The notes beneath the pieces are model-generated. The model saw nothing but the letters and a program-made list of their open reading frames with translations, made no database searches and was not told where the DNA came from. Position numbers and translations under genes: made by a program. 64,000 bases of DNA from Allobosea sp. CS1GBMeth4 (GTDB lineage Bacteria; Pseudomonadota; Alphaproteobacteria; Rhizobiales; Beijerinckiaceae), in the NCBI RefSeq assembly GCF_900185715.1, contig NZ_FYAS01000055.1, positions 62,001 through 126,000 of the forward strand, given 5' to 3'. Below, piece by piece: positions 21,713 to 47,323 of the stretch (positions are counted from its first letter, which is position 1; each line of letters begins with the position of its first letter).

Positions 21713-21799
21713 GCCCAGGTGGCGGAATTGGTAGACGCACCAGCTTCAGGTGCTGGCGCTCGCAAGGGCGTGGAGGTTCGAGTCCTCTCCTGGGCACCA
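21713..21799 (+). tRNA. tRNA-Leu (CAG)
   Basis: This is an 87-nt class II tRNA with encoded CCA. The acceptor GCCCAGG pairs with CCTGGGC. The D-loop region GGCGGAATTGGTAGACGC is typical of tRNA-Leu. The anticodon stem CCAGC/GCTGG encloses loop TTCAGGT, giving anticodon CAG. A variable arm (GGCGCTCGCAAGGGCGT) and GGTTCGAGTCC complete it. It reads CUG, the dominant leucine codon in this genome. Confidence 0.97.
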
Positions 21800-22030: not shown

Positions 22031-23503
22031 CTACCGACACGCGATGAACACGCTCGCCTTCTTCGCCTTGTCGGCCAAGTCTGCGGGGTCGAGCTTATCG
22101 CCCAACGTCCCTGTCTCGTAGGTGATCTGATTGGCGTCGAGGAAACTGATCGCGAGCGATGCCTTAACAGCGAAGTTGACGTTCTGCGGGAGGTCTCCTT
22201 GCTCTCCAGCAACCTTGATGGCGTTCAGCTTCGATGTCACGACGCCGACGACATTCCCTGAGGTGTCCAAGAGTGGACCGCCAGAGTTACCAGCCTGCAC
22301 CGGAGCGGAAATCTGAAGGTGCCGGCTGTCGTCCCGCAAGCCGGCCAGCGCGGTAACATTGCCGAGCGTGAAGTTGCCGGTCGTTGCCAAGATGTCGGTA
22401 TGTGGGAAGCCAAACGCGGCAATTCCTTCGCCCAACCGAACGCTCGACCGGAGCGACAACGTTTTTTCCACCGGCCCGGCGACCTTAAGGACCACCAAGT
22501 CATTGATGACATCTCTAGCGACAATCCGAGCAGGAAGCGCGGTGGCCCCATCCGGCCGCACCGTGATCGTAGCGCAGTCCTTCACCACATGGGCGTTCGT
22601 CATGACATGTCCAGCCTTCGACACGAAGAAGCCCGAGCCCGTAGAGAAGGTCGTCTTCGGCGGCTCGGTCGGCCTCGATGTGGGCGTAGTCGGAGGCGGA
22701 GCGGATGGAGGAGCATTTGCGACCTCGGGCTCATTGCGGCCCCAAGGGTAACTTGCGCGTTGAGTCGTTGGGAATGGCGCACCGGTCATACTGGCCCATA
22801 GTGAGCCCGAAATGATCGTAACCAGCCGGTTTCCGTAAACCGGAGCGTCGTCGCTGGACCATCCCATGTCGAAGCCGAGGATGCCGTCGCCATCGGTGTG
22901 ATAGCGGACATATCGATTGTAGCGGCCCTGATTGCCGGTGATGACGAAGAAGTCTCCCTTGAGCACCTTGTAATTGATGCGGTCGCCGCTTCCGACCATC
23001 TCGCGAAGGGTGGTGTCGTAGGCAGTGCGCACGTCGGCGGCGGCAATGTAGTTGAACTTCATGCGGAACCGATTGGCCGGCTCCTTCATCTCGACCCCGA
23101 GGTCGGTTCTCCTCACTTCAAGGTTAAGCCCCATCGGCACCCAAAGTTGCCGACCGCGTACCGGATGTGGCACCCAACGCAGGCGCCATCCGTCGAGAAC
23201 GGACCTTGCTGAAGCGAGCATGCTGTTGACCTGGGCTTCGGTCAGGACGCCCGTGGGCAACTCCCCGCGCGAAAGCTGATACTGTTTCGTCGCCTCGAAT
23301 AGCCGTCGCGAGTAACCAACATTGGGCACCGCGGGCCAATGGCCGGAGCTCGTCAGGACGATCTGAAACCAAAGCCGCGTGTCAGGCTTCAAGCTGAGGA
23401 AGGCTTCCTGCGCGGACTGAAAGTACGGATCAGAAGATTGCGCATGCACAGCGACAGGTGCCAGCAACAAAGACAGCCCTAAAGCGGCTGCTCGCAGGCG
23501 CAT
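22031..23503 (-). CDS. Secreted trypsin-like serine protease with N-terminal PG-binding-like region
   Basis: A 490-aa protein with a signal peptide (cleavage near VHAQ). An N-terminal segment resembles a peptidoglycan-binding repeat (RLFEATKQYQLSRGELPTGVLTEAQV). A unique middle domain is followed by a Pro/Thr-rich linker near 270-290, then a trypsin-like domain: His in MTNAHVV, Asp in INDLVVLKV, Ser in GNSGGPLLD. ATG at 23503 has GGGGAAG just upstream and begins the signal peptide. Its last 200 residues are close to those of the protease at 42946-44814. It stands alone between tRNA-Leu and the exporter genes. Confidence 0.85.
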   Translation of the reverse strand: MRLRAAALGLSLLLAPVAVHAQSSDPYFQSAQEAFLSLKPDTRLWFQIVLTSSGHWPAVPNVGYSRRLFEATKQYQLSRGELPTGVLTEAQVNSMLASARSVLDGWRLRWVPHPVRGRQLWVPMGLNLEVRRTDLGVEMKEPANRFRMKFNYIAAADVRTAYDTTLREMVGSGDRINYKVLKGDFFVITGNQGRYNRYVRYHTDGDGILGFDMGWSSDDAPVYGNRLVTIISGSLWASMTGAPFPTTQRASYPWGRNEPEVANAPPSAPPPTTPTSRPTEPPKTTFSTGSGFFVSKAGHVMTNAHVVKDCATITVRPDGATALPARIVARDVINDLVVLKVAGPVEKTLSLRSSVRLGEGIAAFGFPHTDILATTGNFTLGNVTALAGLRDDSRHLQISAPVQAGNSGGPLLDTSGNVVGVVTSKLNAIKVAGEQGDLPQNVNFAVKASLAISFLDANQITYETGTLGDKLDPADLADKAKKASVFIACR

Positions 23504-32749: not shown

Positions 32750-32773
32750 GGGGACCGAGAGGTCCCCTTTTCT
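32750..32773 (+). terminator. Rho-independent terminator
   Basis: GGGGACC pairs with GGTCCCC around loop GAGA and is followed directly by TTTTCT. The T run is on the + strand only, so it ends a rightward transcript, not the leftward 430-aa gene whose stop overlaps it. Confidence 0.8.
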
Positions 32774-34064
32774 AGCCTTTGAACCATGTATCGTGCCAAT
32801 CTTCCGGCTCGTTGCGTTCCCGCCTCCAAGTCAGATAGTACTCGTCTGAGCGAAGGTGCTCGATATAAGCCGACTCCAGGCCGAGTATCTTCATTTTAGG
32901 CTCTTTTACCAGTCGCGTATTGGCGTAATCGATGCCTTCAAGGTATTTCAGGCGGTCAAAGGCGCTTAGAACCCGGTCCACCTGCTGAAGATATTCGTCT
33001 CGATGCAAGTCCCAACCCGTTCTCAGGCTCTCAATTTCTCGCATGCGCTCCCGCCCTTCCAGCAGCTCACGCTGGGCGGCCCGTCGGAACGGGTACAAGC
33101 TTTGGCTGAAGTCGAGCGGGGCATCTTTCCTTCCGAAATAGAGGTAGGCGACCCCGCGTAGTGCAGCCAGCATTTCCGGATTCTCGTGATTGTCCCGGAC
33201 GGCCGCCAGCAGCGGATCGGTCAGTACCTTCGGCCTACGATACTCGAATGGCGTGTTTGGCCACTGATTGAACCGATGGAACTCAAAGATCCCCGCCGGA
33301 AATAGCGAGGCGAAGCCCGGGTCTTTGAGAAACCCGCGCGCAGCCTCCGCAAGTTTCCCGCGAGAGATCAGGTCGATGATGTACGCGAAATAGAGGTTCT
33401 TCACCTCCTGATCTGAGAAGACGCCCGCGTGCCCCGCATCGACAAGTCCCTTGAAGCGGGCTGTGTCGGTCTTGGAGGCGAACCGATCTAACCACTGTCT
33501 TCCGATACTCCGCAGCCTTTGAGAAAGGTCTTCCGACCGCGAGCCAGGTACGGTCTCGGCTGCTGCCAGTCGAAAGCGAGAAACCCAATATCTCGAATGG
33601 ACCGGCACTTCCTCGAAAACGTCCGGGAAGGCGTCGATAATGCGCTCCGCTTCATCCCGTTGAAGCCGCGCTTTGAAGCGCCCGTTCCGCGCATCATCGA
33701 GGAGGCGCCGCACATCATCGACGACTTCGGCGGCCTCCGGGCTTTGCGTCGCAATGTCCGGCACGTCCTCGGGGTAGGCGTTCCCGTTGACATGGTGGAG
33801 CTTGCCATTGACCCAGAACGGCACCGGCGCATATTCGCCGATCATCATCCGTCGCCGAGTGACGCCGGGCGGGATCTGCTGGACAAGCCGGTATGGCGCA
33901 TCGGGCGGGAGCAGTAGGAAACGGGTGATCCGAAAGTCACCGTCTGTCTCGGATACCCAGAGCGAATTACTGTTGCTAACCGAGAAAAGCGGGATGCCGA
34001 TCGAGTCCGGCACATCAACCAGCCGGATGGAGCCCCACAGATCGGCCCGCGACCGGCGGCTCAT
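32772..34064 (-). CDS. Unknown 430-aa protein in defence-like block
   Basis: A soluble protein with no signal peptide or membrane segment. The N-terminal 150 residues are beta-rich (SVSNSNSLWVSET, FWVNGKLHHVNGNAYPED). The rest is mostly helical and charged, with LYFAYIIDLISRGKLAEAARGFL and a C-terminal acidic, Trp-rich tail (DEYYLTWRRERNEPEDWHDTW). The start overlaps the stop of the ADP-ribosyltransferase-like gene (ATGA), so the two are translationally coupled and may act together. I recognise no family. Confidence 0.75.
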   Translation of the reverse strand: MSRRSRADLWGSIRLVDVPDSIGIPLFSVSNSNSLWVSETDGDFRITRFLLLPPDAPYRLVQQIPPGVTRRRMMIGEYAPVPFWVNGKLHHVNGNAYPEDVPDIATQSPEAAEVVDDVRRLLDDARNGRFKARLQRDEAERIIDAFPDVFEEVPVHSRYWVSRFRLAAAETVPGSRSEDLSQRLRSIGRQWLDRFASKTDTARFKGLVDAGHAGVFSDQEVKNLYFAYIIDLISRGKLAEAARGFLKDPGFASLFPAGIFEFHRFNQWPNTPFEYRRPKVLTDPLLAAVRDNHENPEMLAALRGVAYLYFGRKDAPLDFSQSLYPFRRAAQRELLEGRERMREIESLRTGWDLHRDEYLQQVDRVLSAFDRLKYLEGIDYANTRLVKEPKMKILGLESAYIEHLRSDEYYLTWRRERNEPEDWHDTWFKG

Positions 34065-34861
34065 AGGCGTATCCCCGCCTTTCGGTAGATCGTGTTCACG
34101 GCACTGTAGATGGCGGAAAAATAGCTGTTGCCGCTAATCGGGTGGCATTCATAGAATTCAATGCGCGGCGTGATCGACTTGACGATTTTCACCATTTCGC
34201 GGTCGCGCTTGTACTCCTCAGGCATCACCACCCCGAGCAGATTTTCGGGGGTGAGGTCGATGTCCGTTTCAAGCTGAAGCTCAATCGCTGCCGCCCGATC
34301 GTCAAATCCCTCTGCGGATTTCTCCGCGTAGAGTCGGTTGATGGCCTTTACTGCCGCATGCCTTGGCGTGAGGCTGTATTCATCATCGAGTTTCTCGGCA
34401 GGACGCGGGTTGCGCTTCACATAGCTCTGATCGTCGCCGAAGAACGCGGACACGACCCTCCCAATGGATTCTCGTTCGGGCGCCAGCTCGAAAGTCTCCC
34501 TGCCGAAGAAGGTGACATACTCCGGCAGCCGCTTGTTCACGAAGGCGCCGCTATCGAAGGGAAAGAGGCGCTTGATCTTTGGGTCCGTCTGGAAGCGGAC
34601 AACGAAGACGGTCGGAAGCAGCCAGTACGGTGTCTCCCCCGCCTCCAGCTGGTACTTGTACGCGGGCCGTCCCACGAACAGGTACGTCAGCTTTTCGCCC
34701 CGGAAGACATTGCATGGCATCGCCGCGATGCGGCCGGTCCCGAGGATCGCCGGCAGATGCCCGGCCTGAGTCGTATGCAGCCACGGCAGTTTAGAAGCCG
34801 TCCCAACCTGGGCCTTCTCCAGAAATTCCTTCAAAGAGAAGTTCTTCAGCATCAGATGCAC
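34061..34861 (-). CDS. ADP-ribosyltransferase-like protein (tentative)
   Basis: A 266-aa soluble protein. The N-terminal segment LPWLHTTQAGHLPAILGTGRI (His29 and Thr30 in a strand, then a helix of the 'x-x-I-L-x-x-G' kind) resembles the NAD-binding start of DarT/PARP-like ADP-ribosyltransferases. A candidate catalytic Glu lies far downstream in VVMPEEYKRDREM. This is motif-level similarity only. The start is GTG at 34861, or ATG at 34852. It is 10 bases downstream of the AbiC-like gene and overlaps the 430-aa gene. Confidence 0.6.
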   Translation of the reverse strand: MHLMLKNFSLKEFLEKAQVGTASKLPWLHTTQAGHLPAILGTGRIAAMPCNVFRGEKLTYLFVGRPAYKYQLEAGETPYWLLPTVFVVRFQTDPKIKRLFPFDSGAFVNKRLPEYVTFFGRETFELAPERESIGRVVSAFFGDDQSYVKRNPRPAEKLDDEYSLTPRHAAVKAINRLYAEKSAEGFDDRAAAIELQLETDIDLTPENLLGVVMPEEYKRDREMVKIVKSITPRIEFYECHPISGNSYFSAIYSAVNTIYRKAGIRL

Positions 34862-34871
34862 CGATCCACGT

Positions 34872-35738
34872 TCACGCGGGCTGCTCCTCGTTCACTTCGG
34901 TCTGCGGGGGCAGGCCAAGTGCCGGGAAGTCATCCAGCGGGCCCATCCCGGCCCGCAGACCGACGTGTGTCCCATGCAGAAGCAGGCCGCTTTGGAGGTT
35001 GTCCAAAAGCTCGTACTTCTTGGAATAGTGCCGGAAGCGATATCCAGGCGATGACAGCATGTTGTAAAATAGCATGACCAGCTCGCCATCGGACAGCTGG
35101 GCGCGCAGGATTTTCATATATTTCTGCTTGGGATCGCCCTTTTCACCATCGAGCAGCGGCAAATGCGCGCCATCAACAAAGCGGATGAGATTGAAGAGGA
35201 ACCGGAAGTAGTGCCCGAGATCGTGACGGTTGCGTCTCCAGAACTCCGCATACGCCTCGTTGATGCTTTTCGATAGGTTTTCGGGCGGATACACGATGCT
35301 CGCTCGCAGCTCCTTACGGAGCTTTTCAACGAAGAGGCGAAAGCAATCGCGGCCGGTAGCCTTCTCGTCACCGCTCTCCTTATCCCGAAGGTCCATCCTG
35401 CTCACGATGTCGTTGTGCAGGGTCAGCATTCGGAAGAACGTTGCCTCGAAACTCTGCCGTATTTGAGCGGCCTGAAGCTTGCGGGATTCCGCCTGCGCTT
35501 CCTCTAATCCCTTTTGCTGCAGGTACAGCGTGAAGAGCACGCCGCCGAAGCCGAGCAAGCTGAGGAGCGGCCCTGCAATACCAGCGAACAGATCGGCGCG
35601 GGCTCCGAGGTTCTGCCATTGACTGCCTTCGGCGCTCCAGATGTGGTGCATGTTTGCAGCCACCAGCAGCACCAGGACGCCGAAAATGCCGAGCAACACG
35701 AGGAATGGGTGCAGCCGGTACGGCTTTGGATTTTCCAT
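34872..35738 (-). CDS. AbiC-like phage abortive infection protein (HEPN)
   Basis: A 288-aa protein matching the putAbiC layout: two N-terminal membrane helices (about 11-30 and 50-72), a coiled linker, then a helical domain with SFEATFFRMLTLHND, FWRRNRHDLGHYFRFLFNLIRF and LSDGELVMLFYNML. R171-x4-H176 fits the HEPN RNase motif. ATG at 35738 is preceded by a GGGGGGAG ribosome site. It is the first gene of a three-gene leftward operon and is divergent from the DUF3800 gene. It is likely a membrane-tethered RNase that acts on infection. Confidence 0.85.
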   Translation of the reverse strand: MENPKPYRLHPFLVLLGIFGVLVLLVAANMHHIWSAEGSQWQNLGARADLFAGIAGPLLSLLGFGGVLFTLYLQQKGLEEAQAESRKLQAAQIRQSFEATFFRMLTLHNDIVSRMDLRDKESGDEKATGRDCFRLFVEKLRKELRASIVYPPENLSKSINEAYAEFWRRNRHDLGHYFRFLFNLIRFVDGAHLPLLDGEKGDPKQKYMKILRAQLSDGELVMLFYNMLSSPGYRFRHYSKKYELLDNLQSGLLLHGTHVGLRAGMGPLDDFPALGLPPQTEVNEEQPA

Positions 35739-35817
35739 GTCTCCCCCCAGGAGCTTTGACTGAGGATAATCCGATTCTTGCGGCAGCTTCCGCAACTGTC
35801 CCCGGTAAATTGGTAGG

Positions 35818-36831
35818 ATGCTGATCTTCATCGATGAGACCGGGTCCATCGGCGAAATGGGAGGGCCGACCAGCATCTTCGCTGTCGGCGCCCTGATCGT
35901 CCCCGAAAGCAAGTGGGATAAGCTGCGCAACGCCTATCTGCGCATGCGCAAATCCCTTCCGCAGAACAAGGGCGAGGTAAAAGGACGCCTGCTCGATGAG
36001 GCGCGGGTGGCGCAGGTGGCTCAGCTCTTGCGCCGACACGAGGCGCTGTTCGAGTGCACCGTCATCGACCTCGGAATGCACAACGCGGAGATTGTCGCCC
36101 AGCACCAGGCACGACAAGCCGAGGGGATGACGAACACGCTGACGGATGCCCATCATCAGACGGTCGTGGACGCGATAGCGAAGGCTCGGCGGCAGTCGGA
36201 AGGCTTCAGCCTGCCCCTTTACGTCCAAACGATGCTCACCTTCCTACTGGTCCGGGACGTGCTGGATATTGCACCCAACTACTACGCTCAGAGGCGCCCG
36301 CGGGAGCTGGCGGCGTTCAAATGGGTGATCGATGCCAAGGACAAGCTTCCCAACCCCACGCCCTGGGAAGTGTGGTGGTCCACCTTCATCATGCCGTGGA
36401 TGCAGACGGATACGCTCCGCACGCCGATTGCTTGGGTCAGAGCTCCTGACTTCAATTTCCGGTTTGCCAAGCGCTTCGAGGCAAAGGCGAGCGAGTGGTA
36501 CCAGGAACTCCTCGCCAACGAGTCGAGCCAGAAGAATGACGGCGACAATTTCCCGCTCGACCTCCGGCTGATCATGAACGAGCATTTTCGGTTCTCGTCA
36601 GAGCCGGAGCCGGGTCTTGAGCTGGTCGATATCGTCACCTCGACCGTCCGTCGCGCTCTGGTCGGGAATATCCGTCCCGAGGGGTGGCGGAGCGTCCGCG
36701 ATCTCATCGTCAACCGCACCGGCGAGAACCTGCATATCCTCGCCCTAACAGGAGCCAGGCGCCCTAAGAATCTCCCATACGGCGACGTGGTGAAGGCGTT
36801 CCGGAACTCACGGCGGACGATGTTCGCCTAA
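35818..36831 (+). CDS. DUF3800 domain-containing protein
   Basis: A 337-aa protein beginning LIFIDETGSIG: the DUF3800 start with Asp6 and Glu7, which belongs to an RNase H-like fold with acidic active-site residues. Later conserved pieces include EVKGRLLDEARV, FKWVIDAKDK and GLELVDIVTSTVRRAL. DUF3800 proteins are frequent in mobile and defence islands and may be nucleases. It is divergent from the AbiC-like gene (79-base spacer) and its stop overlaps that of the convergent HEPN-like gene by 4 bases. Confidence 0.85.
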   Translation: MLIFIDETGSIGEMGGPTSIFAVGALIVPESKWDKLRNAYLRMRKSLPQNKGEVKGRLLDEARVAQVAQLLRRHEALFECTVIDLGMHNAEIVAQHQARQAEGMTNTLTDAHHQTVVDAIAKARRQSEGFSLPLYVQTMLTFLLVRDVLDIAPNYYAQRRPRELAAFKWVIDAKDKLPNPTPWEVWWSTFIMPWMQTDTLRTPIAWVRAPDFNFRFAKRFEAKASEWYQELLANESSQKNDGDNFPLDLRLIMNEHFRFSSEPEPGLELVDIVTSTVRRALVGNIRPEGWRSVRDLIVNRTGENLHILALTGARRPKNLPYGDVVKAFRNSRRTMFA

Positions 36832-39004: not shown

Positions 39005-39518
39005 GATCAGCATCGCGGTGATCATAACGACGAGAGAAGCGTGATGGCCTGCAGGCATTTCAGCCACTGACGCGTCTCGGCGGCGCATTTGGGCTGGCAT
39101 ACTAGGAGCGCCCGATGATCTGGATCCGCGCAGAAGTTGCGATTCAGTTGAGGTCGGATGGGCTGATCCGATGTCACGACACATAGCGGCGCTTCGGCCC
39201 GATCTCGTATGGATTGTCAGCAGGCAGAACACTGCGGCCTGGTTACGATCTGCTGGTCGGACCCACCGTAACGTCCGCTGCAGGGCAACCACTCAATGTC
39301 CGCAGTTGGCGCTTTCGACTATCTCATTGTTTTCAATCGCTTCACCGCAACGGCGGGCGTGGAGCGGTCGTTTCTCATCCAGTGTCTGTTGAATGCCGGA
39401 TCGAGGCGATCGCTCGAAAACCTCTTGCAAAAAAACCGCCGCGACTTTCGAGCTATTGCAAGGCGCGCGGCCACACGCAAAGGTAGTCTAGCCTCTCACC
39501 TTCAGCCGGCCAATCGCC
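39005..39518. other. Gap upstream of hxsD, with a dispersed repeat copy
   Basis: 514 bases without a convincing gene. A copy of the dispersed repeat lies at about 39248-39318 (CTGCTGGTCGGAC ... AATGTCCGCAGTTGGCGC). A 108-codon frame (39296-39622) runs into hxsD in another phase; it shows no protein family character and starts inside the repeat. The hxs promoter should lie in the last 200 bases. Confidence 0.5.
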
Positions 39519-39761
39519 ATGACTTGCCATATCTCAATCCCGGCGTCCTTTCACGGTTATCTGGACTCAGCGATCGTGCGCTTCGAGAGCCGACATGCCG
39601 GCATCCGTGTCGTCTCAGGTGAAGCGGGCGTCGACCTCGAAGGCGAGCAAGCTGCAGATCCTGAACTGCGGGCTGATTTTCTGCATATCCTGTATCGCGA
39701 GAAGATCTATGCCGAGACTCTCTCGATGCGCCAGGCGCTTTTGCGCGTCGTGCTGCGATGA
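39519..39761 (+). CDS. hxsD: His-Xaa-Ser system protein HxsD
   Basis: An 80-aa protein in the HxsD position and of about its size. The C-terminal half (FLHILYREKIYAETLSMRQALLRVVL) fits the HxsD pattern in which a helix with LREK-x-x-x-x-T is followed by R-x-x-I/L. Its stop overlaps the start of hxsB (ATGA). No catalytic motif is visible; by analogy with other radical SAM peptide systems it may help bind the substrate. The identification rests mainly on context and the C-terminal motif. Confidence 0.75.
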   Translation: MTCHISIPASFHGYLDSAIVRFESRHAGIRVVSGEAGVDLEGEQAADPELRADFLHILYREKIYAETLSMRQALLRVVLR

Positions 39762-41167
39762 AGATTTGGCCGCTAAGATTTCGAGGAGGGGCGGCGGACG
39801 GCTATCTCTTCACCGACGACGCCGGAGGGTTTTTCCGCGCTGACGCCACCTTCCTGGATCGGTACGTTTCGGGCGGGTTGACGGCACGGGACAAGGCTTT
39901 CCTTCACCTCGGCGGCCACGGTTTCGAAGAGGCCGGTGATTTGGCTCACACGAGCTTCGCGTACCGCTGGAGCCAACGGCAAGCCATCCGAACCGAACTT
40001 GGCTATGTGATCCTGGTGCCGACGCTCAGGTGCAACCTGACCTGCACGTACTGTCAGGTCTCTCGCGCGGCCGAAAACGCTCGCGGGTACGATTGGAGCG
40101 AGGACACGACCGAGGCCGTGCTGCGCTATCTCGATGGATTGACGACGAGTGACGTCAAGATCGAGTTCCAGGGCGGTGAACCACTGCTGCGCCTGGATTT
40201 GCTCGAAGAGGTACGTTCGTTCTGTCGCCGGCGGTTCACGTCGTCCAAGTTCGTGGTCTGCACCAACCTCCAAAGGCTGGGATCCGAGGAATGGTCCTTC
40301 CTCGACGCCCCGGACACTTTCGTCAGCACTTCCCTCGATGGCGATCTCGCCACCCATACCCGGCAGCGAACGCGGTCGACTTCGGCCACCGAAGGGTTCC
40401 TAAGCAACCTGGATCAGGTACTGGAGCGGCTGGGAGCCGACAAGGTTTCGGCACTGCCCACGATCGACATCGACGATCCCCCCGACTTCGATGAGTTGAT
40501 CGAAGCCTACAGCTCTCGCGGCATGCGCTCGATCTATCTGCGGCCGATCAATCACCAGGGCTTCGCGCGGCGCGCTCGGTCCGTCGACGCCGATATCGAG
40601 CGATGGAACATGCTCCACCGCGAATTCGTGGAGCACCTAGTCGACCTCAACTACCGAACAGGCGCCGGGCTGGAGGAATACTATTTCTCCCAGTGTCTGC
40701 GACGCGCGCTGCGTCCGGGCGCCGACGATCACGTCGATTTAAGGAATCCCAATTTCTTCGGCTCTGATTACGTGGTCATCGACCACGATGGAAAACTGTA
40801 CCCGACGGACGAGGCGAGGATGCTGTCTCGGATCGGTCGCATCGACCTGTCCATCGGGGACGTCTTCACCGGCATCGCGGCGGAGAAACGGGACATCCTG
40901 AATGCGGCGTCGCTCAACAGCTTCGATCCCGACTGCATTCACTGTGCCTTCCAGCCCTATTGCGGATCGGACCTGATCGATGACCTCTCGCGGTACGGTC
41001 GCAGCGACCATGCGCGAAGCAACACCTGGTTCTGCAGACGGCACACCAGTGTTTTCGATCATGTCTTCGAACTGATGTACCGGGGTGATGCGGCCGCCGA
41101 TCATTCCCTGGCTCAGTGGTCAGGCATCGCGAACTGGGGTGCGCACCTAGCGCCCAAGCTATCATGA
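39758..41167 (+). CDS. hxsB: His-Xaa-Ser system radical SAM maturase HxsB
   Basis: A 469-aa radical SAM enzyme. The SAM-cluster cysteines are Cys92, Cys96 and Cys99 in RCNLTCTYCQVSR; the CQVS tail and the EFQGGEPLL motif are typical of HxsB. A C-terminal SPASM-type Cys set (DCIHCAFQPYCG ... WFCRRH, about 385-430) should hold auxiliary iron-sulfur clusters. The N-terminal LRFRGGAADGYLFTDDAG resembles the family's opening. It overlaps hxsD and hxsC by 4 bases each. It should modify HxsA, with unknown chemistry. Confidence 0.93.
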   Translation: MKIWPLRFRGGAADGYLFTDDAGGFFRADATFLDRYVSGGLTARDKAFLHLGGHGFEEAGDLAHTSFAYRWSQRQAIRTELGYVILVPTLRCNLTCTYCQVSRAAENARGYDWSEDTTEAVLRYLDGLTTSDVKIEFQGGEPLLRLDLLEEVRSFCRRRFTSSKFVVCTNLQRLGSEEWSFLDAPDTFVSTSLDGDLATHTRQRTRSTSATEGFLSNLDQVLERLGADKVSALPTIDIDDPPDFDELIEAYSSRGMRSIYLRPINHQGFARRARSVDADIERWNMLHREFVEHLVDLNYRTGAGLEEYYFSQCLRRALRPGADDHVDLRNPNFFGSDYVVIDHDGKLYPTDEARMLSRIGRIDLSIGDVFTGIAAEKRDILNAASLNSFDPDCIHCAFQPYCGSDLIDDLSRYGRSDHARSNTWFCRRHTSVFDHVFELMYRGDAAADHSLAQWSGIANWGAHLAPKLS

Positions 41168-42270
41168 TCCCCCTTCAGATCGCCGCGAGCACCTCAAGCG
41201 CCGGTCCGTTTATTGCGCGCCTCAATTCCGAAGGCCGCGCTTTCGAGCTGGAACGGACGCAGGGACGAACCCCGTTCGATGTCGATCTTGAGTTCGTCGG
41301 ATCGGGGAGGCTGGTTTATCGCTCCGCCTCGATCGAGCTTGAGCTCAAAAGCGTCGATGCCGACGATGTCGACGGAGACGTGGTCTTCGTGAACCCGGCG
41401 CGTGGTATCGCTCATCGCCTGGTTCGCGCAGGGTCGGCCCACAACACGTTCCTCATCACGGAGCGCTGCGACCAGCTCTGCGTGATGTGCTCGCAGCCGC
41501 CGAAGCGGGGTCATGTCGACATGTTCCCGTATTTCGAGGCCGCCGCTCTGCTCGCGCCAAAGGGTGCCGTTCTAGGCGTCTCTGGTGGCGAGCCGACGCT
41601 CTTCAAAGGTCAACTGCTCCCATTTCTTGAACGAGTGCTGGGACAGCGGCCGGACCTCAGCTTCCATGTCCTGACGAACGCGCAGCATTTCGATGTCGAT
41701 GATGTGAGTGCCTTGTGGCGGCTGCCCCGCGATCGCGTGACCTGGGGCGTCCCGCTCTATTCGAGCGACAGCGAGGTCCACGATGGAATCGTGGGAAAGG
41801 TCGGTGCCTTCCACAAACTCGCTGAAGGGCTGGCAATCCTGGCGAGATCGGGAGCTACGCTTGAGCTCCGGACCGTACTGATGACCCGGAATGTCGAGGC
41901 GTTGCCCGCGCTGGCGCGCTTCGTCGCTTCGCACGTTCCGTTCGCCACGAGCTGGGCGATCATGCAGCTCGAAAACATTGGGTACGGTCGGCTCAATTGG
42001 GCCGAGCTGTTCCACGACCACTCCCAGCGGTTCGAGCCCGTCGGTGAGGCGATCGACCTCGCGCGAAGCCGCGGCCTGGACGTCTGGCTCTATAATTTCC
42101 CCCGCTGCACGGTTCCGAGTGACTACCGGCAGCTCGCGCCTCCAACGATCTCGGATTGGAAGCGTCGCTATCCCGCGGCTTGCGATGGCTGCGCGGAGAA
42201 GGCGGAATGTAGCGGACTCTTCGAGTGGCAGACCGATGATCGCGGCTTCACGAGGTTTGGGTTGCTATGA
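41164..42270 (+). CDS. hxsC: His-Xaa-Ser system radical SAM maturase HxsC
   Basis: A 368-aa second radical SAM enzyme. Cys102, Cys106 and Cys109 are in ERCDQLCVMCSQPPK, the HxsC signature, followed by GVSGGEPTLFK. A C-terminal Cys group (CDGCAEKAECSGLF) may bind another cluster. ATG at 41164 overlaps the hxsB stop, and the stop overlaps the hxsA start, so all four hxs genes are translationally coupled. HxsB and HxsC are expected to act on the same substrate. Confidence 0.93.
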   Translation: MIPLQIAASTSSAGPFIARLNSEGRAFELERTQGRTPFDVDLEFVGSGRLVYRSASIELELKSVDADDVDGDVVFVNPARGIAHRLVRAGSAHNTFLITERCDQLCVMCSQPPKRGHVDMFPYFEAAALLAPKGAVLGVSGGEPTLFKGQLLPFLERVLGQRPDLSFHVLTNAQHFDVDDVSALWRLPRDRVTWGVPLYSSDSEVHDGIVGKVGAFHKLAEGLAILARSGATLELRTVLMTRNVEALPALARFVASHVPFATSWAIMQLENIGYGRLNWAELFHDHSQRFEPVGEAIDLARSRGLDVWLYNFPRCTVPSDYRQLAPPTISDWKRRYPAACDGCAEKAECSGLFEWQTDDRGFTRFGLL

Positions 42271-42890
42271 AGCGTAGGCTGTTCGCCATCCCGTCGCTGC
42301 TAGCGGCAGGCCTCATGCCAATGAAGACCGACGCGGCGTCGTTACCCGATGGGGTCTCCGGCGCCGCAAGGCCGGATTCTGACAAGTCGTTGTTCGACGT
42401 ATTCAGGCTTCCGCACAAATACATCCTGGCGCGGCACCGGAGCCATAGCTCCCATCGCAGTCATAGCTCGCATCGATCGTCGTCGGGCGGAAGCTATTAC
42501 AGGTCGCCGAGCTATTCGTCCCCGTCTCCCTCCTACTCGGCGCCGCTGTATACGCCCCCGGCTTCGTCGGCCGTCCCGTCCCCATCCGTTCGATCGCCGG
42601 ATGCCGGTTCCGCGCCGTCCGTCGGCGGTGGCGCCGGAAGGCCCGCTAGTGGCTCGCCGGCCCGTGGCAACCCCGTCATCTTGCCGGGGAACACCGACAG
42701 GTTCGCGGCCATCGTCAAGCAGGTTCAGATGGCGATGCTGGCGTTCGGATATTACAGCGGGCCGATCAACGGCACCGTGAGCCAGGACACGCGCGATGCG
42801 CTGACCCGGCTGCAAACCGATTACGGCCTGAAGCCGACTGGCACCATTACCCCGCAAACCCTGGATGCGTTGAGGATCAGGGCTGATTAA
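42267..42890 (+). CDS. hxsA: His-Xaa-Ser repeat protein HxsA
   Basis: A 207-aa secreted protein. A signal peptide covers about residues 1-24. Five tandem His-X-Ser triplets (HRS HSS HRS HSS HRS) occupy residues 57-71. A Ser/Pro/Tyr-rich spacer runs to about 140, then a PG_binding_1 domain (about 146-203; QMAMLAFGYYSGPINGTV and ALTRLQTDYGLKPTG). This is the defining layout of HxsA. The His-X-Ser array is the presumed site of radical SAM modification, and the domain would fix the product to peptidoglycan. Confidence 0.92.
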   Translation: MKRRLFAIPSLLAAGLMPMKTDAASLPDGVSGAARPDSDKSLFDVFRLPHKYILARHRSHSSHRSHSSHRSSSGGSYYRSPSYSSPSPSYSAPLYTPPASSAVPSPSVRSPDAGSAPSVGGGAGRPASGSPARGNPVILPGNTDRFAAIVKQVQMAMLAFGYYSGPINGTVSQDTRDALTRLQTDYGLKPTGTITPQTLDALRIRAD

Positions 42891-42945
42891 AGCAGCGGTT
42901 ACGCGGGGTGAGTAGTTTGGTCGGAGCTGTCGGGTGAGTGGTTCG

Positions 42946-44814
42946 ATGCGTTTCGCGATGGTTCTGGCGGTTGTGTTCGGGGTCGGTGGTCCGTGCCTGG
43001 CACAGCAATCGAGTTTCTCACAGAAGGGCGATTATCGATGGATTGCCTTGGCCAGTCGTCAGGCGGAGGACGAGGCCATCGGCGTCGCCAGGGCCTACCG
43101 CTACCTGCTGCCCACCGTGCGCGTCGTGCAGGCGACGAATGGTTGGTTCGCCATCGTCGCCGGGCCCGAGAGGGTGGCGAATGCAAAGGCCCGTAAGGAA
43201 CAACTGGTTCGGGAGGGCAACGCACCGAGCGATATGCTATTCAGCCGCGGCGACGGCTATGTGCGTGAGGTGTGGGTCCCGACGTCACCCAAGTTCGAGT
43301 TCCAGCTGGAGTATGACGGCAAGCGCCCCCTGTCAGCCCAACTCGGAGAGGCTCGGTTCGTCGTCGCCAGTCGCAAGGTCGATGGAAGCAACATCGCCGG
43401 TGTAACCATCTCGCAGCCCGACCGACAGCCGCTCAAGTTCGAGCTGGACGAGGCGACCGCTTCCTTCCCGAATGCCAAGCTGGTGGCGCTCCGCCTCGAC
43501 CCCGCATCGGACGACCACCAGCTGATGTTCTCGTCCTTCTGGGGCGGTGCGCATTGCTGCACCGTCACGAAGTTCATCGTACCGCAGAGCGGCTCCTGGC
43601 AGGCTGTTTCCGGCAAGACTGCCGATGGGGACGTCGGCTACTCCTTCGAGGATGTCGATGGCGATGGGGTCGCCGAGCTCATCCACAGCGACAACACATT
43701 TCTTTATCGGTACACCTACTATGCAGCCTCGATCGCGCCGACGAGGGTATCGCGGCTGAGCGGTACGAGGGTGGTCGACATTACGCTTGCGCCCTCGTCG
43801 CAACGGTACATGCGACAAAGCCTGTACAAAATGGAGCACTGGGCAGCGAAGAGCCCGGAGATGTGGCGGTCGAACGGCTTCCTGTCGGCATGGGTCGCGA
43901 TCAAAGCCGTCGTCGGCGAGTTCGACGACGCATGGAGCCGGATGCTGCCGCTCTACGATCGCGGCTCCGATTGGCCGCTGACCGAATGTGCCGTCGAGAA
44001 GGTCAAGGACGCGTGCCCACCCGGGCGAGAGATCACGGTGGATTTCCCGACGGCTTTGAGGAAGCATCTGGAAGACGAGCGCTACATCCCGCGGGGATCC
44101 GGCAGCGCGTCTGCCTCGACGGAGGTAGCAGCCCTTCCGAGTCCCTCGGCCGCGGCTCCATCATCCCCTCAGCCGCCGCCGGTGGCGCGGACCTCGTCAG
44201 GGACCGGCTTCTTCGTCGGTAGCTCGGGGCACCTCGTCACGAATGCGCATGTTGTCGAAAGCTGCCTCGACGCAAAGGTCCGCGGGCGGTCTCTTCCGGA
44301 GGCGAGCGCTAGGATCGTCGCCCGCGACCCGATCAACGACTTGGCCCTGCTGGTCTCGGAACGTCGGAGCGAGAAGACGTCCTCGATCCGGATGACCGCG
44401 CGTCTGGGCGAGACCGTCGCCGCCTTTGGCTTCCCGCTCACGCAGGTTCTGGCTACCAGCGGCAACTTCACTCTGGGCAACATCACTGCCTTGGCGGGGA
44501 TCGGCGACGATACCCGTTACATCCAGATCTCAGCGCCGATTCAACCGGGCAATAGCGGCGGGCCATTGCTCGACGAGCAAGGTAACGTGGTCGGCGTCGT
44601 CACCTCGAAGCTGAATGCGCTCAAAACGCTCGTAGCGTCTGGCGATGTGCCTCAAAACGTGAATTTCGCCATCCGAGCTACGGGGTTGATCGCCTTCCTC
44701 CAAAGCAACGGAGTTAGTGTCGATCCCATCCCGAAAGGCGCAAAACTATCGCCTCCGGATCTGGCTGACGAGGCCGGGAGCATAAGCGTCCAGGTAAGCT
44801 GCAACGCTCGCTGA
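42946..44814 (+). CDS. Secreted trypsin-like serine protease with SPOR-like N-terminus
   Basis: A 622-aa protein. Signal peptide to about residue 20; a SPOR-like repeat (WIALASRQAEDEAI ... GWFAIVAGPE) at about 25-95; a unique middle part with a calcium-loop-like DVDGDGVAEL; a Ser/Pro linker near 390-420; then a trypsin-like domain with His in VTNAHVVES, Asp in INDLALLV and Ser in GNSGGPLLD. ATG at 42946 starts the signal peptide; GTG at 42934 is an alternative. It lies 55 bases after hxsA, so it is likely co-transcribed and might process HxsA. Its catalytic domain is paralogous to 22031-23503. Confidence 0.85.
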   Translation: MRFAMVLAVVFGVGGPCLAQQSSFSQKGDYRWIALASRQAEDEAIGVARAYRYLLPTVRVVQATNGWFAIVAGPERVANAKARKEQLVREGNAPSDMLFSRGDGYVREVWVPTSPKFEFQLEYDGKRPLSAQLGEARFVVASRKVDGSNIAGVTISQPDRQPLKFELDEATASFPNAKLVALRLDPASDDHQLMFSSFWGGAHCCTVTKFIVPQSGSWQAVSGKTADGDVGYSFEDVDGDGVAELIHSDNTFLYRYTYYAASIAPTRVSRLSGTRVVDITLAPSSQRYMRQSLYKMEHWAAKSPEMWRSNGFLSAWVAIKAVVGEFDDAWSRMLPLYDRGSDWPLTECAVEKVKDACPPGREITVDFPTALRKHLEDERYIPRGSGSASASTEVAALPSPSAAAPSSPQPPPVARTSSGTGFFVGSSGHLVTNAHVVESCLDAKVRGRSLPEASARIVARDPINDLALLVSERRSEKTSSIRMTARLGETVAAFGFPLTQVLATSGNFTLGNITALAGIGDDTRYIQISAPIQPGNSGGPLLDEQGNVVGVVTSKLNALKTLVASGDVPQNVNFAIRATGLIAFLQSNGVSVDPIPKGAKLSPPDLADEAGSISVQVSCNAR

Positions 44815-44849
44815 AGCCGAGGCCTCGATCGCGGCACGGCGATTTCAGA

Positions 44850-44900
44850 AGGTCTGCTTTCAGGCAAAGGCCCAATGTCCGGAAGTGGCGCATTTCGCCA
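44850..44900 (+). repeat. Degenerate dispersed repeat, copy 3
   Basis: It begins AGGTCTGCTTTCAGGC, passes through CCCAATGTCCGGAAGTGGCGC, and ends in CATTTCGCC. It lies just after the protease stop and closes the hxs gene group on the right, as copy 1 lies to its left. Confidence 0.6.
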
Positions 44901-46833: not shown

Positions 46834-47323
46834 ATGGCAAACTAACGCCCCCGCCGACCTGTGTCAATGATAGTTTCCCGCCCGGAACACTATCGCTCGC
46901 CGACATTGCGCCTGTCAGCGGTAAGGACAAGGCTGCCCTGCACTGAATGGAAGCTAAAGTTCGAGGAAGCTCGGTCGCGCTTGGTGCTGATCGAGCCTGA
47001 CAGCCGCTGTGGGTAGGGAAGGGACGCTACCTGTCGGTGACGAAAGTCTGGTTTGAGGCATCGCCCCAATGTCAGCCTGTGGCGCCAGCTCGCCACTGGT
47101 CGAGCAATGTGGCTATCGGAGACCCGGCGTGGAAATCGAGTTCGTGAAGGTGCCAAAGCACCTGATCGGGCGATATGAACTACGCGGATCACGGATCCGC
47201 ACAATATGATGTGATTGCACCAGATCGCACGGCGAATTGGCGCAAATGTTTCCCGCCGCTCTCTATTCTTCATAGCAGAAGCAATAACCCTTCTAGTGAA
47301 CAGAGGGGCGTGGGGAATAATAC
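46834..47323. other. Gap with dispersed repeat copy 4
   Basis: 490 bases without a convincing gene. A repeat copy is at about 47045-47090 (AAGTCTGGTTTGAGGC ... CCCAATGTCAGCCTGTGGCGCC). An imperfect pair CCTGTCAGCGG/CCTGACAGCCGCT lies further left. The right end should contain the promoter of the catabolic locus; GGGGAA lies 8 bases before the deformylase ATG. Confidence 0.5.

Follow-up and report, generated by a model that had tools for sequence, protein, structure and literature searches.

The window analysed here, a stretch of 64,000 nucleotides (nt) from Allobosea sp. CS1GBMeth4 (contig NZ_FYAS01000055.1, positions 62,001 to 126,000 of the forward strand), carries a genuine His-Xaa-Ser (Hxs) system, a family that is already named and whose function is unsolved, as four adjacent genes in the order hxsD, hxsB, hxsC and hxsA. 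The unit that moves between genomes is larger than this four-gene operon: it is a 5.6-kb block that includes a fifth gene, coding for a protease, and this larger unit is new here, as are the predicted RRE-like domain of HxsB, the probable double role of the HxsA signal peptide and the MauG-type partner gene in related loci. We propose, with a probability of about 0.5, that the operon works in the manner of systems for ribosomally synthesized and post-translationally modified peptides (RiPPs), in which a RiPP recognition element (RRE) would guide the formation of a three-residue cyclophane in each His-X-Ser triplet of the substrate protein HxsA, followed by Sec export and binding to the cell wall. 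The family is said to have been first described by Haft and Basu in 2011, a work that PMC9062424 cites. The features concerned are as follows, in window positions and with lengths in amino acids (aa); G and L numbers, here and below, are our own labels for genomes and loci.

39295 to 44891, no strand assigned: transferable cassette, hxsD-hxsB-hxsC-hxsA and the secreted protease gene; the block shared with G029 and G022
39519 to 39761, plus strand: gene in the hxsD position, 80 aa, with the predicted order beta-alpha-beta-beta-alpha-alpha; in synteny and conserved across 22 rows
39758 to 41167, plus strand: hxsB, radical S-adenosylmethionine (SAM)/SPASM maturase, 469 aa; above the TIGR03978 cut-off
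39758 to 39997, plus strand: predicted RRE-like N-terminal domain of HxsB, about residues 1-80; three strands, then three helices (AlphaFold2)
40031 to 40054, plus strand: radical SAM cysteines C92-C96-C99 of HxsB, invariant in 21 rows
40934 to 41035, plus strand: C-terminal cluster cysteines C393, C396, C402 and C426 of HxsB (SPASM region), invariant in 21 rows
41164 to 42270, plus strand: hxsC, the other radical SAM maturase, 368 aa, start ATG; above the TIGR03977 cut-off
41467 to 41490, plus strand: radical SAM motif C-x3-C-x2-C of HxsC, from the sequence
42181 to 42210, plus strand: C-terminal C-x2-C-x5-C of HxsC, from the sequence
42267 to 42890, plus strand: hxsA, exported substrate protein, 207 aa; above the TIGR03979 cut-off
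42267 to 42335, plus strand: HxsA signal peptide, probably also leader (KRRLFAIPSLLAAG); signal and cleavage position by eye
42384 to 42434, plus strand: HxsA pre-array motif (KSLFDVFRLPHKYILAR), 57% mean pairwise identity in 25 rows
42435 to 42479, plus strand: HxsA array of five His-Xaa-Ser triplets, from the sequence
42714 to 42872, plus strand: HxsA PG_binding_1 domain (Pfam PF01471, E 4.4e-13)
42946 to 44814, plus strand: trypsin-like serine protease gene, 622 aa from this ATG; alternative start GTG at 42934

Three of the four Hxs proteins exceed the curated NCBIfam cut-offs: HxsB with 404.3 bits against TIGR03978 (cut-off 370), HxsC with 296 bits against TIGR03977 (cut-off 267.9) and HxsA with 142.5 bits against TIGR03979 (cut-off 121.65). 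An earlier note on this DNA had read the four genes as a complete Hxs system and named the hidden Markov models TIGR03976 to TIGR03979 as the check; this stands for HxsB, HxsC and HxsA, but the HxsD-position protein has no match to the HxsD model TIGR03976 and is not the standard family member that had been assumed. The note's description of the locus is otherwise borne out, since all three gene junctions read as ATGA in the sequence, both maturases keep the three SAM-cluster cysteines (C92-x3-C96-x2-C99 in HxsB and C-x3-C-x2-C at 41467-41490 in HxsC), and HxsA has five unbroken His-X-Ser triplets together with a peptidoglycan-binding domain (PG_binding_1, 49.6 bits, cut-off 23). Its placing of the genes in an accessory region also holds, with a G+C content of 0.57-0.63 around the locus against 0.66-0.72 in the left 20 kb of the window, and with HxsC above its cut-off in just four of 67 genomes of the genus, our own counted. 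Compared with the Hxs system as defined by TIGR03976-TIGR03979, the locus thus shares the cut-off scores, the adjacent genes and an array on an exported protein, and differs in its HxsD-position protein and in that the co-moving fifth gene here is a protease. Judged by its sequence, we class the locus as a variant Hxs system, which the HxsB, HxsC and HxsA models recognize, which the HxsD model does not and whose HxsB falls in a group apart.

The same gene order and a His-X-Ser array are found in 22 of 23 loci holding HxsB relatives, so that the operon is not a chance arrangement. In 19 of 22 loci hxsD and hxsB share 4 nt at the matched start, and in 24 of the 25 HxsA rows hxsC and hxsA overlap by 4 nt. 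Against the Bosea robiniae copy (L026), the ratio of non-synonymous to synonymous substitution rates (dN/dS) is 0.10-0.22 across the five cassette genes, which are therefore under purifying selection.

The extent of the moving block follows from two genomes. Window positions 39295-44891 are 98.2% identical to G029 and positions 39311-44886 are 95.1% identical to B. robiniae G022, the HxsB proteins of the window and B. robiniae being 94% identical, and the flanks differ: on the two sides of the cassette in G029 and G022, about 5 kb and about 9 kb have no match to the window there. The earlier note had closed the locus at 42890, which omits the co-moving protease gene ending at 44814. The protease has a Trypsin_2 domain (92 bits, Pfam) and a signal-like N-terminus, and a relative of it stands after hxsA in five genomes, our own and G481/L027 counted; in G046, from a different family of the same taxonomic order, the protease gene overlaps hxsA by 4 nt. 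Beyond the cassette, the sole match of the G029 and G022 stretches to the whole window (E 1e-5) is a 254-bp part of the cassette protease gene, which resembles another trypsin-like gene of the window at 22215-22468. This second trypsin-like gene spans 22031-23089 on the minus strand, near a tRNA-Leu (21713-21799), and over 254 bp it has about 68% identity with the protease gene, of the cassette type, in L022.

HxsA is the presumed substrate. Its array, HRS-HSS-HRS-HSS-HRS, occupies residues 57-71 and is followed by a linker rich in Ser, Pro and Tyr that leads to the PG_binding_1 domain; the protein contains no Cys. Slippage was considered as the source of the array and rejected, as the three HRS units differ in their codons (CACCGGAGC, CATCGCAGT and CATCGATCG), which implies that the repeat is maintained at the protein level. 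In a set of 41 array proteins, from which 16 duplicate or short loci were skipped and in which near-identical strains were retained, each has five to eight triplets in a strict three-residue period without a break, and in 39 an Ala lies two residues ahead of the first His of the array.

Conservation along HxsA is uneven. Among the 25 of these 41 proteins that belong to the present type, the first 22 residues have a mean pairwise identity of 56% (a figure lowered by L038, whose start was cut late), and the further values are 22% in the spacer, 57% in the 17 residues before the array, 75% in the array, 25% in the linker (24 rows) and 54% in the peptidoglycan-binding domain (25 rows). The signal peptide, with the motif KRLFxIPSLLAAG, which is present in 30 of the 41 array proteins, is thus as conserved as the globular domain of HxsA. 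In the five loci that have both, HxsA signals are 55.5% identical against 30.5% for the signals of MauG-like neighbours, a control of five loci only and uncorrected for descent. A cleaved Sec signal would not be expected to stay so conserved, so something else probably reads it, and the HxsA signal peptide probably doubles as a leader recognized by the maturases.

The candidate reader is HxsB, for which an RRE-like domain, of the kind that binds leaders, is predicted ahead of the radical SAM and SPASM parts. In an AlphaFold2 model made from 21 sequences, with a predicted local distance difference test score (pLDDT) of 88.3 and a predicted template modelling score of 0.88, the N-terminus has the secondary structure E7-10 E15-19 E25-29 H30-37 H43-51 H62-75. 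RRE domains have the order three strands then three helices, of winged-helix type. The top structural match in VIA-align is 5why_B, which we take to be the sactipeptide maturase CteB, itself presumably carrying an RRE (Z 28.1, root mean square deviation (rmsd) 4.3, 387 aligned, model residues 4-442), and it is tied, at less than one Z apart, with 4k39_A of anSME, a formylglycine maker (Z 27.5, rmsd 3.2, 343 aligned, model residues 80-459). They are followed by 5wgg_A (Z 27.2), ChlB 9gm3_A (Z 25.9) and TigE 8vpo (Z 21.4, model residues 1-469), and Foldseek concurs on CteB (5wgg_A, E 3.9e-16). HxsB resembles CteB in its layout of N-terminal domain, radical SAM domain and SPASM domain, and differs from it in sequence (15-16% identity) and in that the thioether chemistry of CteB needs a Cys, which HxsA lacks. 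If the N-terminal RRE match holds, HxsB itself would bind the leader of its substrate. HxsC has no sequence relative in the PDB at E 0.01.

The HxsD-position protein has no match to any NCBIfam or Pfam model up to E=1, TIGR03976 included. When TIGR03976 was applied to 10 further HxsD-position proteins, the labelled Klebsiella protein that served as positive control exceeded the cut-off, eight gave no match and one gave E 0.05 over a C-terminal motif. A profile comparison with three labelled HxsD proteins (probability 21.5%, E 0.001, 33 columns) likewise shows only a C-terminal pattern in common. Its AlphaFold2 model (22 sequences, pLDDT 95.2) predicts a small alpha/beta shape of order E-H-E-E-H-H, for which the best Foldseek match has E 0.092 and the best VIA match, an FMRP domain, has Z 6.9 (rmsd 2.6, 69 aligned), a Z under 8 that may mean merely a common arrangement. 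A search of PDB sequences with the HxsD alignment profile gave a single match of E 0.24, which was disregarded. We provisionally rejected HxsD as the RRE protein of the system, as the predicted order of elements is different and the model has no confident structural relative; no RRE chain was seen among the best 50 structural matches listed, which by itself excludes nothing. By its position we count the protein as a divergent HxsD.

Taken together with the array, these predictions suggest the following course. The N-terminal segment of HxsA, as both Sec signal and leader, would be held before export by the RRE-like domain of HxsB, and HxsD, different in fold, would be a small accessory protein. 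The five His-Xaa-Ser triplets would be the target of HxsB and HxsC, both of them radical SAM enzymes with a cysteine cluster at the C-terminus; the most likely modification is a C-C bond from the His imidazole to the Ser beta-carbon of each triplet (a three-residue cyclophane, -2.016 Da each), and the cross-linked array may then form a stiff histidine-rich rod. HxsA would be exported, shed its signal or leader and be anchored at the peptidoglycan through its C-terminal domain. Outside the cytoplasm a secreted partner would act on it or with it, the trypsin-like protease here and a MauG-type di-haem peroxidase elsewhere. Modification in the cytoplasm by two enzymes in sequence, as the earlier note had suggested, is plausible, their order of action being supposition.

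The proposed bond is drawn from analogy. Triceptide links join residues i and i+2, and His-Xaa-Ser has this spacing; in the available text of PMC11002830, MscB is described as joining Phe C4 to Ser C-beta, HaaB as joining His C2 to Ala C-beta and YhhB as joining His C2 to Arg C-beta. The aromatic-X-acceptor motif of cyclophane substrates occurs five times in HxsA as His-X-Ser, so that the cyclophane enzymes (FxsB/MscB, HaaB and YhhB; triceptides) and the Hxs system would have in common an aromatic residue at i, an acceptor at i+2 and a radical SAM/SPASM enzyme. They differ in that HxsB scores far under the FxsB and YhhB cut-offs (49.1 bits against the cyclophane-forming YhhB model NF041707, cut-off 445), in that Hxs has two radical SAM enzymes, and in that the Hxs motif is repeated and sits on a larger wall-binding protein. 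By their models HxsB is outside the cyclophane families, but it may work like them. Thioethers are removed as an option by the lack of Cys in HxsA, and among the chemistries that touch the array we would give the cyclophane about one chance in two.

The genes that follow hxsA bear on the partner. A CCP_MauG-family protein with a signal-like start (53.8-66.8 bits, cut-off 25.6) lies 311-356 nt after hxsA in five of 22 loci (L038, L039, L040, L043 and L044), all alphaproteobacterial and from four named genera and an Oricola metagenome-assembled genome; L040 has a second MauG-type di-haem peroxidase. Elsewhere hxsA is followed by two GH25 proteins (L029), a nuclease-like protein (L033) or an OLD-like protein (L034), and 11 of 21 loci lack a same-strand frame of at least 150 aa that starts within 400 nt of hxsA, L042 being left out of this count because its sequence ends too early. 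The partner of hxsA is hence lineage-specific and often absent. After hxsA on S. meliloti pSymA (L086:10133-13493) there are frames that look vWA-, PP2C- and kinase-type, these names being given by eye.

Several observations weigh against the proposal. The N-terminal match of HxsB rests on CteB and TigE, because SuiB and SkfB, which are RRE-bearing enzymes, align with the model only from residue 76; the structural list comes from a whole-protein search in which residues outside 76-439 were barely tested, and the first 85 residues had no Pfam match in any of the eight HxsB proteins tested. The signal motif is replaced by different N-termini in the remaining 11 of the 41 array proteins, from other lineages, perhaps as leaders vary among RiPP lineages. 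The relationships of HxsB do not favour a cyclophane, because its nearest relatives make thioethers or formylglycine: among NCBIfam models it scores 90.5 bits against the thioether maker PapB, 63.5 bits against CcpM and 54.1 bits against anaerobic sulfatase maturases, and 42 bits against the cyclophane-forming FxsB model TIGR04269 (cut-off 370). The protease is 3' of hxsA in just two of 22 relative loci (L026 and L027), and the protease-linked rows of the HxsB tree are not a clade, L023 (G046) being separated from the window, L026 and L027 by partner-less rows, and the link was thus lost, or gained twice; compared with the MauG-linked rows alone, the protease label needs one change (support 88/75). 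Finally, hxsB is interrupted in the 98%-identical copy of G029 and in two Mesorhizobium loci, L041 and L047, and L048 has only a fragment, and the system is therefore dispensable.

Four other explanations were considered. Tentatively, the system may be as described and its chemistry another, with Ser converted to formylglycine, inversion to D-amino acids, or links of C-O, C-N or other kinds. Thioether-forming CteB (Z 28.1) and anSME (Z 27.5), the latter with the formylglycine role given above, are the nearest folds, PapB and sulfatase maturases are the neighbours in sequence, and Hgh, another two-radical SAM system, with an RRE protein HghD, offers a precedent in which HghC joins Ser O to His C-beta and HghB forms an N-C link (available text of PMC11002830). 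His and Ser, however, stand at fixed spacing in every triplet of all 41 arrays, a pattern more in keeping with a His-Ser link than with a change of Ser only, and an HxsA without Cys leaves no thioether. That the window copy is decaying island cargo without an active product is very unlikely: the interrupted hxsB genes of the near-identical G029 copy and of the two Mesorhizobium loci would agree with it, whereas in the window all five genes are open and dN/dS against L026 is 0.10-0.22.

The other two explanations are compatible with the proposed maturation and concern what the product does. A metal-handling surface protein, in which the modified His array would bind copper or zinc at the wall, is suggested by five histidines per 15 residues and by noursin, a His-crosslinked RiPP that requires its His crosslink for copper binding (available text of PMC10206099). 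The hxs genes have a mer operon as neighbour on one Klebsiella plasmid, and on a Sphingobium plasmid the neighbour is a TonB siderophore receptor. Neighbours in two records prove nothing, however, the cassette has no metal transporter or regulator, and we consider this role doubtful. More unlikely still is an anti-phage or antagonism module in which the modified wall-bound HxsA and the protease would act against invaders. Defence-type genes, picked by eye, lie within about 7 kb of the cassette, and a Leptospira phage record and plasmids (429 HxsB records, 334 of them conjugative) carry hxs genes as well; yet any genomic-island cargo would have such neighbours, HxsA and the protease look exported, and PADLOC, applied to HxsB, HxsC and the protease only, gave weak or partial matches (pVip 30 bits, RT-Protease 65.6 bits).

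As regards these neighbours, the same accessory region of the window holds putAbiC, a putative phage abortive infection protein (34872-35876, minus strand, 64.5 bits), beside which two genes at 32772-34861 (minus strand) have no Pfam match. Near the cassette in other genomes are MkoA in B. robiniae (830 bits, L112:2079-5675), PDC-M68B in G029 (203 bits, L111:7143-8177) and LmuA in G481 (154 bits, L108:16149-17324).

The distribution of the system is wide and patchy. With our own genome included in the counts for HxsB, HxsC and HxsA, HxsB exceeds its cut-off in three of 61 genomes (our own and its relatives), and additionally occurs in two pieces in G029, while of 398 genomes sampled from the phylum, 12 have an HxsA that passes its cut-off. 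A tblastn search with HxsB gave matches in 429 plasmid records out of 72,556, and in 398 of these the match covers 80% or more of the query; of the 429, 320 are from Klebsiella and 334 are typed as conjugative. Among phage records there are matches in seven of 50,697, one over at least 80% of the query. These counts mark the Hxs system as known and widespread, yet sporadic in its own genus. On the Leptospira phage record KF114877.1 (L130:3981-7290), hxsA, hxsD, hxsB and hxsC are annotated in a row. On a Klebsiella pneumoniae plasmid (NZ_CP103689.1, L083:8494-9640) no open frame was seen to encode a His-X-Ser array; an HxsA-like start after hxsC stops early, as judged by eye, and intact array copies are present in L088 and L089.

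In a midpoint-rooted HxsB tree of 39 rows, the present type falls in a group of 27 (support 100/100), apart from 12 others, with long branches meeting at the 27/12 split. The group of 12 includes the labelled Klebsiella and Nostoc systems and a Sphingobium copy, and because of the latter this type of HxsB is not common to all Alphaproteobacteria. The system is best read as a RiPP-like operon for protein modification, of a mainly rhizobial and alphaproteobacterial Hxs type. The Hxs loci on the rhizobial plasmids R. etli p42a and S. meliloti pSymA are alike in gene order and in a leader-like signal peptide, and their HxsD is detected by our HxsD profile, the R. etli protein being labelled 'hypothetical protein'; they differ in being plasmid-borne and in their downstream genes.

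The edges of the cassette coincide with a direct repeat, present in two copies:

39295 to 39312, plus strand: left-edge direct repeat AATGTCCG....TGGCGC, 3 mismatches to the right-edge copy
44874 to 44891, plus strand: right-edge direct repeat AATGTCCGGAAGTGGCGC; the homology to G029 stops here and that to G022 stops inside it

At a looseness of 3 mismatches, 0.10 matches are expected in the window by chance, and 2 matches arose in 2 of 100 shuffles. We rejected the repeat as a specific attachment site, as AATGTCCGGAAGTGG is found at two places in our own genome at no more than 1 mismatch, which marks a dispersed repeat, and a longer form (GTCYGNTTNNNGGCNNNNNNCCAATGTC and a tail) is found at five places at the same stringency. 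It looks like a short dispersed intergenic repeat, with window copies at 39295-39312, 44874-44891 and about 47040-47085. In G029 four of five copies of the tail motif lie inside the 39 kb around hxs, all on one strand, which looks as if modules were swapped at the repeat. The edge repeat was not found at the ends of the G481 copy, which is 72.6% identical. Genes of mobile elements are seen near the block in both close relatives: in G029 a phage-type integrase of 208 aa (3832395-3833021; L110:12396-13022), some 75 nt away from the edge of the cassette, and in B. robiniae G022 a large serine recombinase (C12:19517-21208; L109:9518-11209), at a distance of about 3 kb, and an IS110-type transposase near the cassette.

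In the literature the family appears by name, in three of 5.39 million papers. In their available text, a P. aeruginosa genome paper lists His-Xaa-Ser genes (PMC8446631), a radical SAM network paper has HxsB and HxsC as putative maturases (PMC9062424) and a Vibrio island paper calls His-Xaa-Ser a putative peptide modification system (PMC6537148); the word Hxs is absent from the available parts of PMC8326336 and PMC7470986. No Hxs product is reported in the openly accessible literature searched, subscription literature being mostly outside that search, which agrees with the statement of the earlier note that the family is named in databases, as the NCBIfam matches attest, while to its author's knowledge neither modification nor role is settled.

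A bolder form of the proposal, which we regard as unlikely, is that HxsA is a protein and no small peptide, that its Sec signal is at once a RiPP leader, that cross-linking of the array is coupled to export, and that a lineage-specific protease or MauG step outside the cytoplasm then finishes or activates a wall-anchored histidine-cyclophane rod. If true, this would be a two-compartment maturation, radical-then-haem or radical-then-protease, which is described for no Hxs system in the open literature searched. Should the signal peptide be the leader, RiPP-type enzymes could take entire exported proteins as substrates. The Hxs system is spread across bacteria while its product is unreported in that literature, and the candidate leader segment, the enzyme that would hold it, the expected mass shift and the partner now make the question testable.

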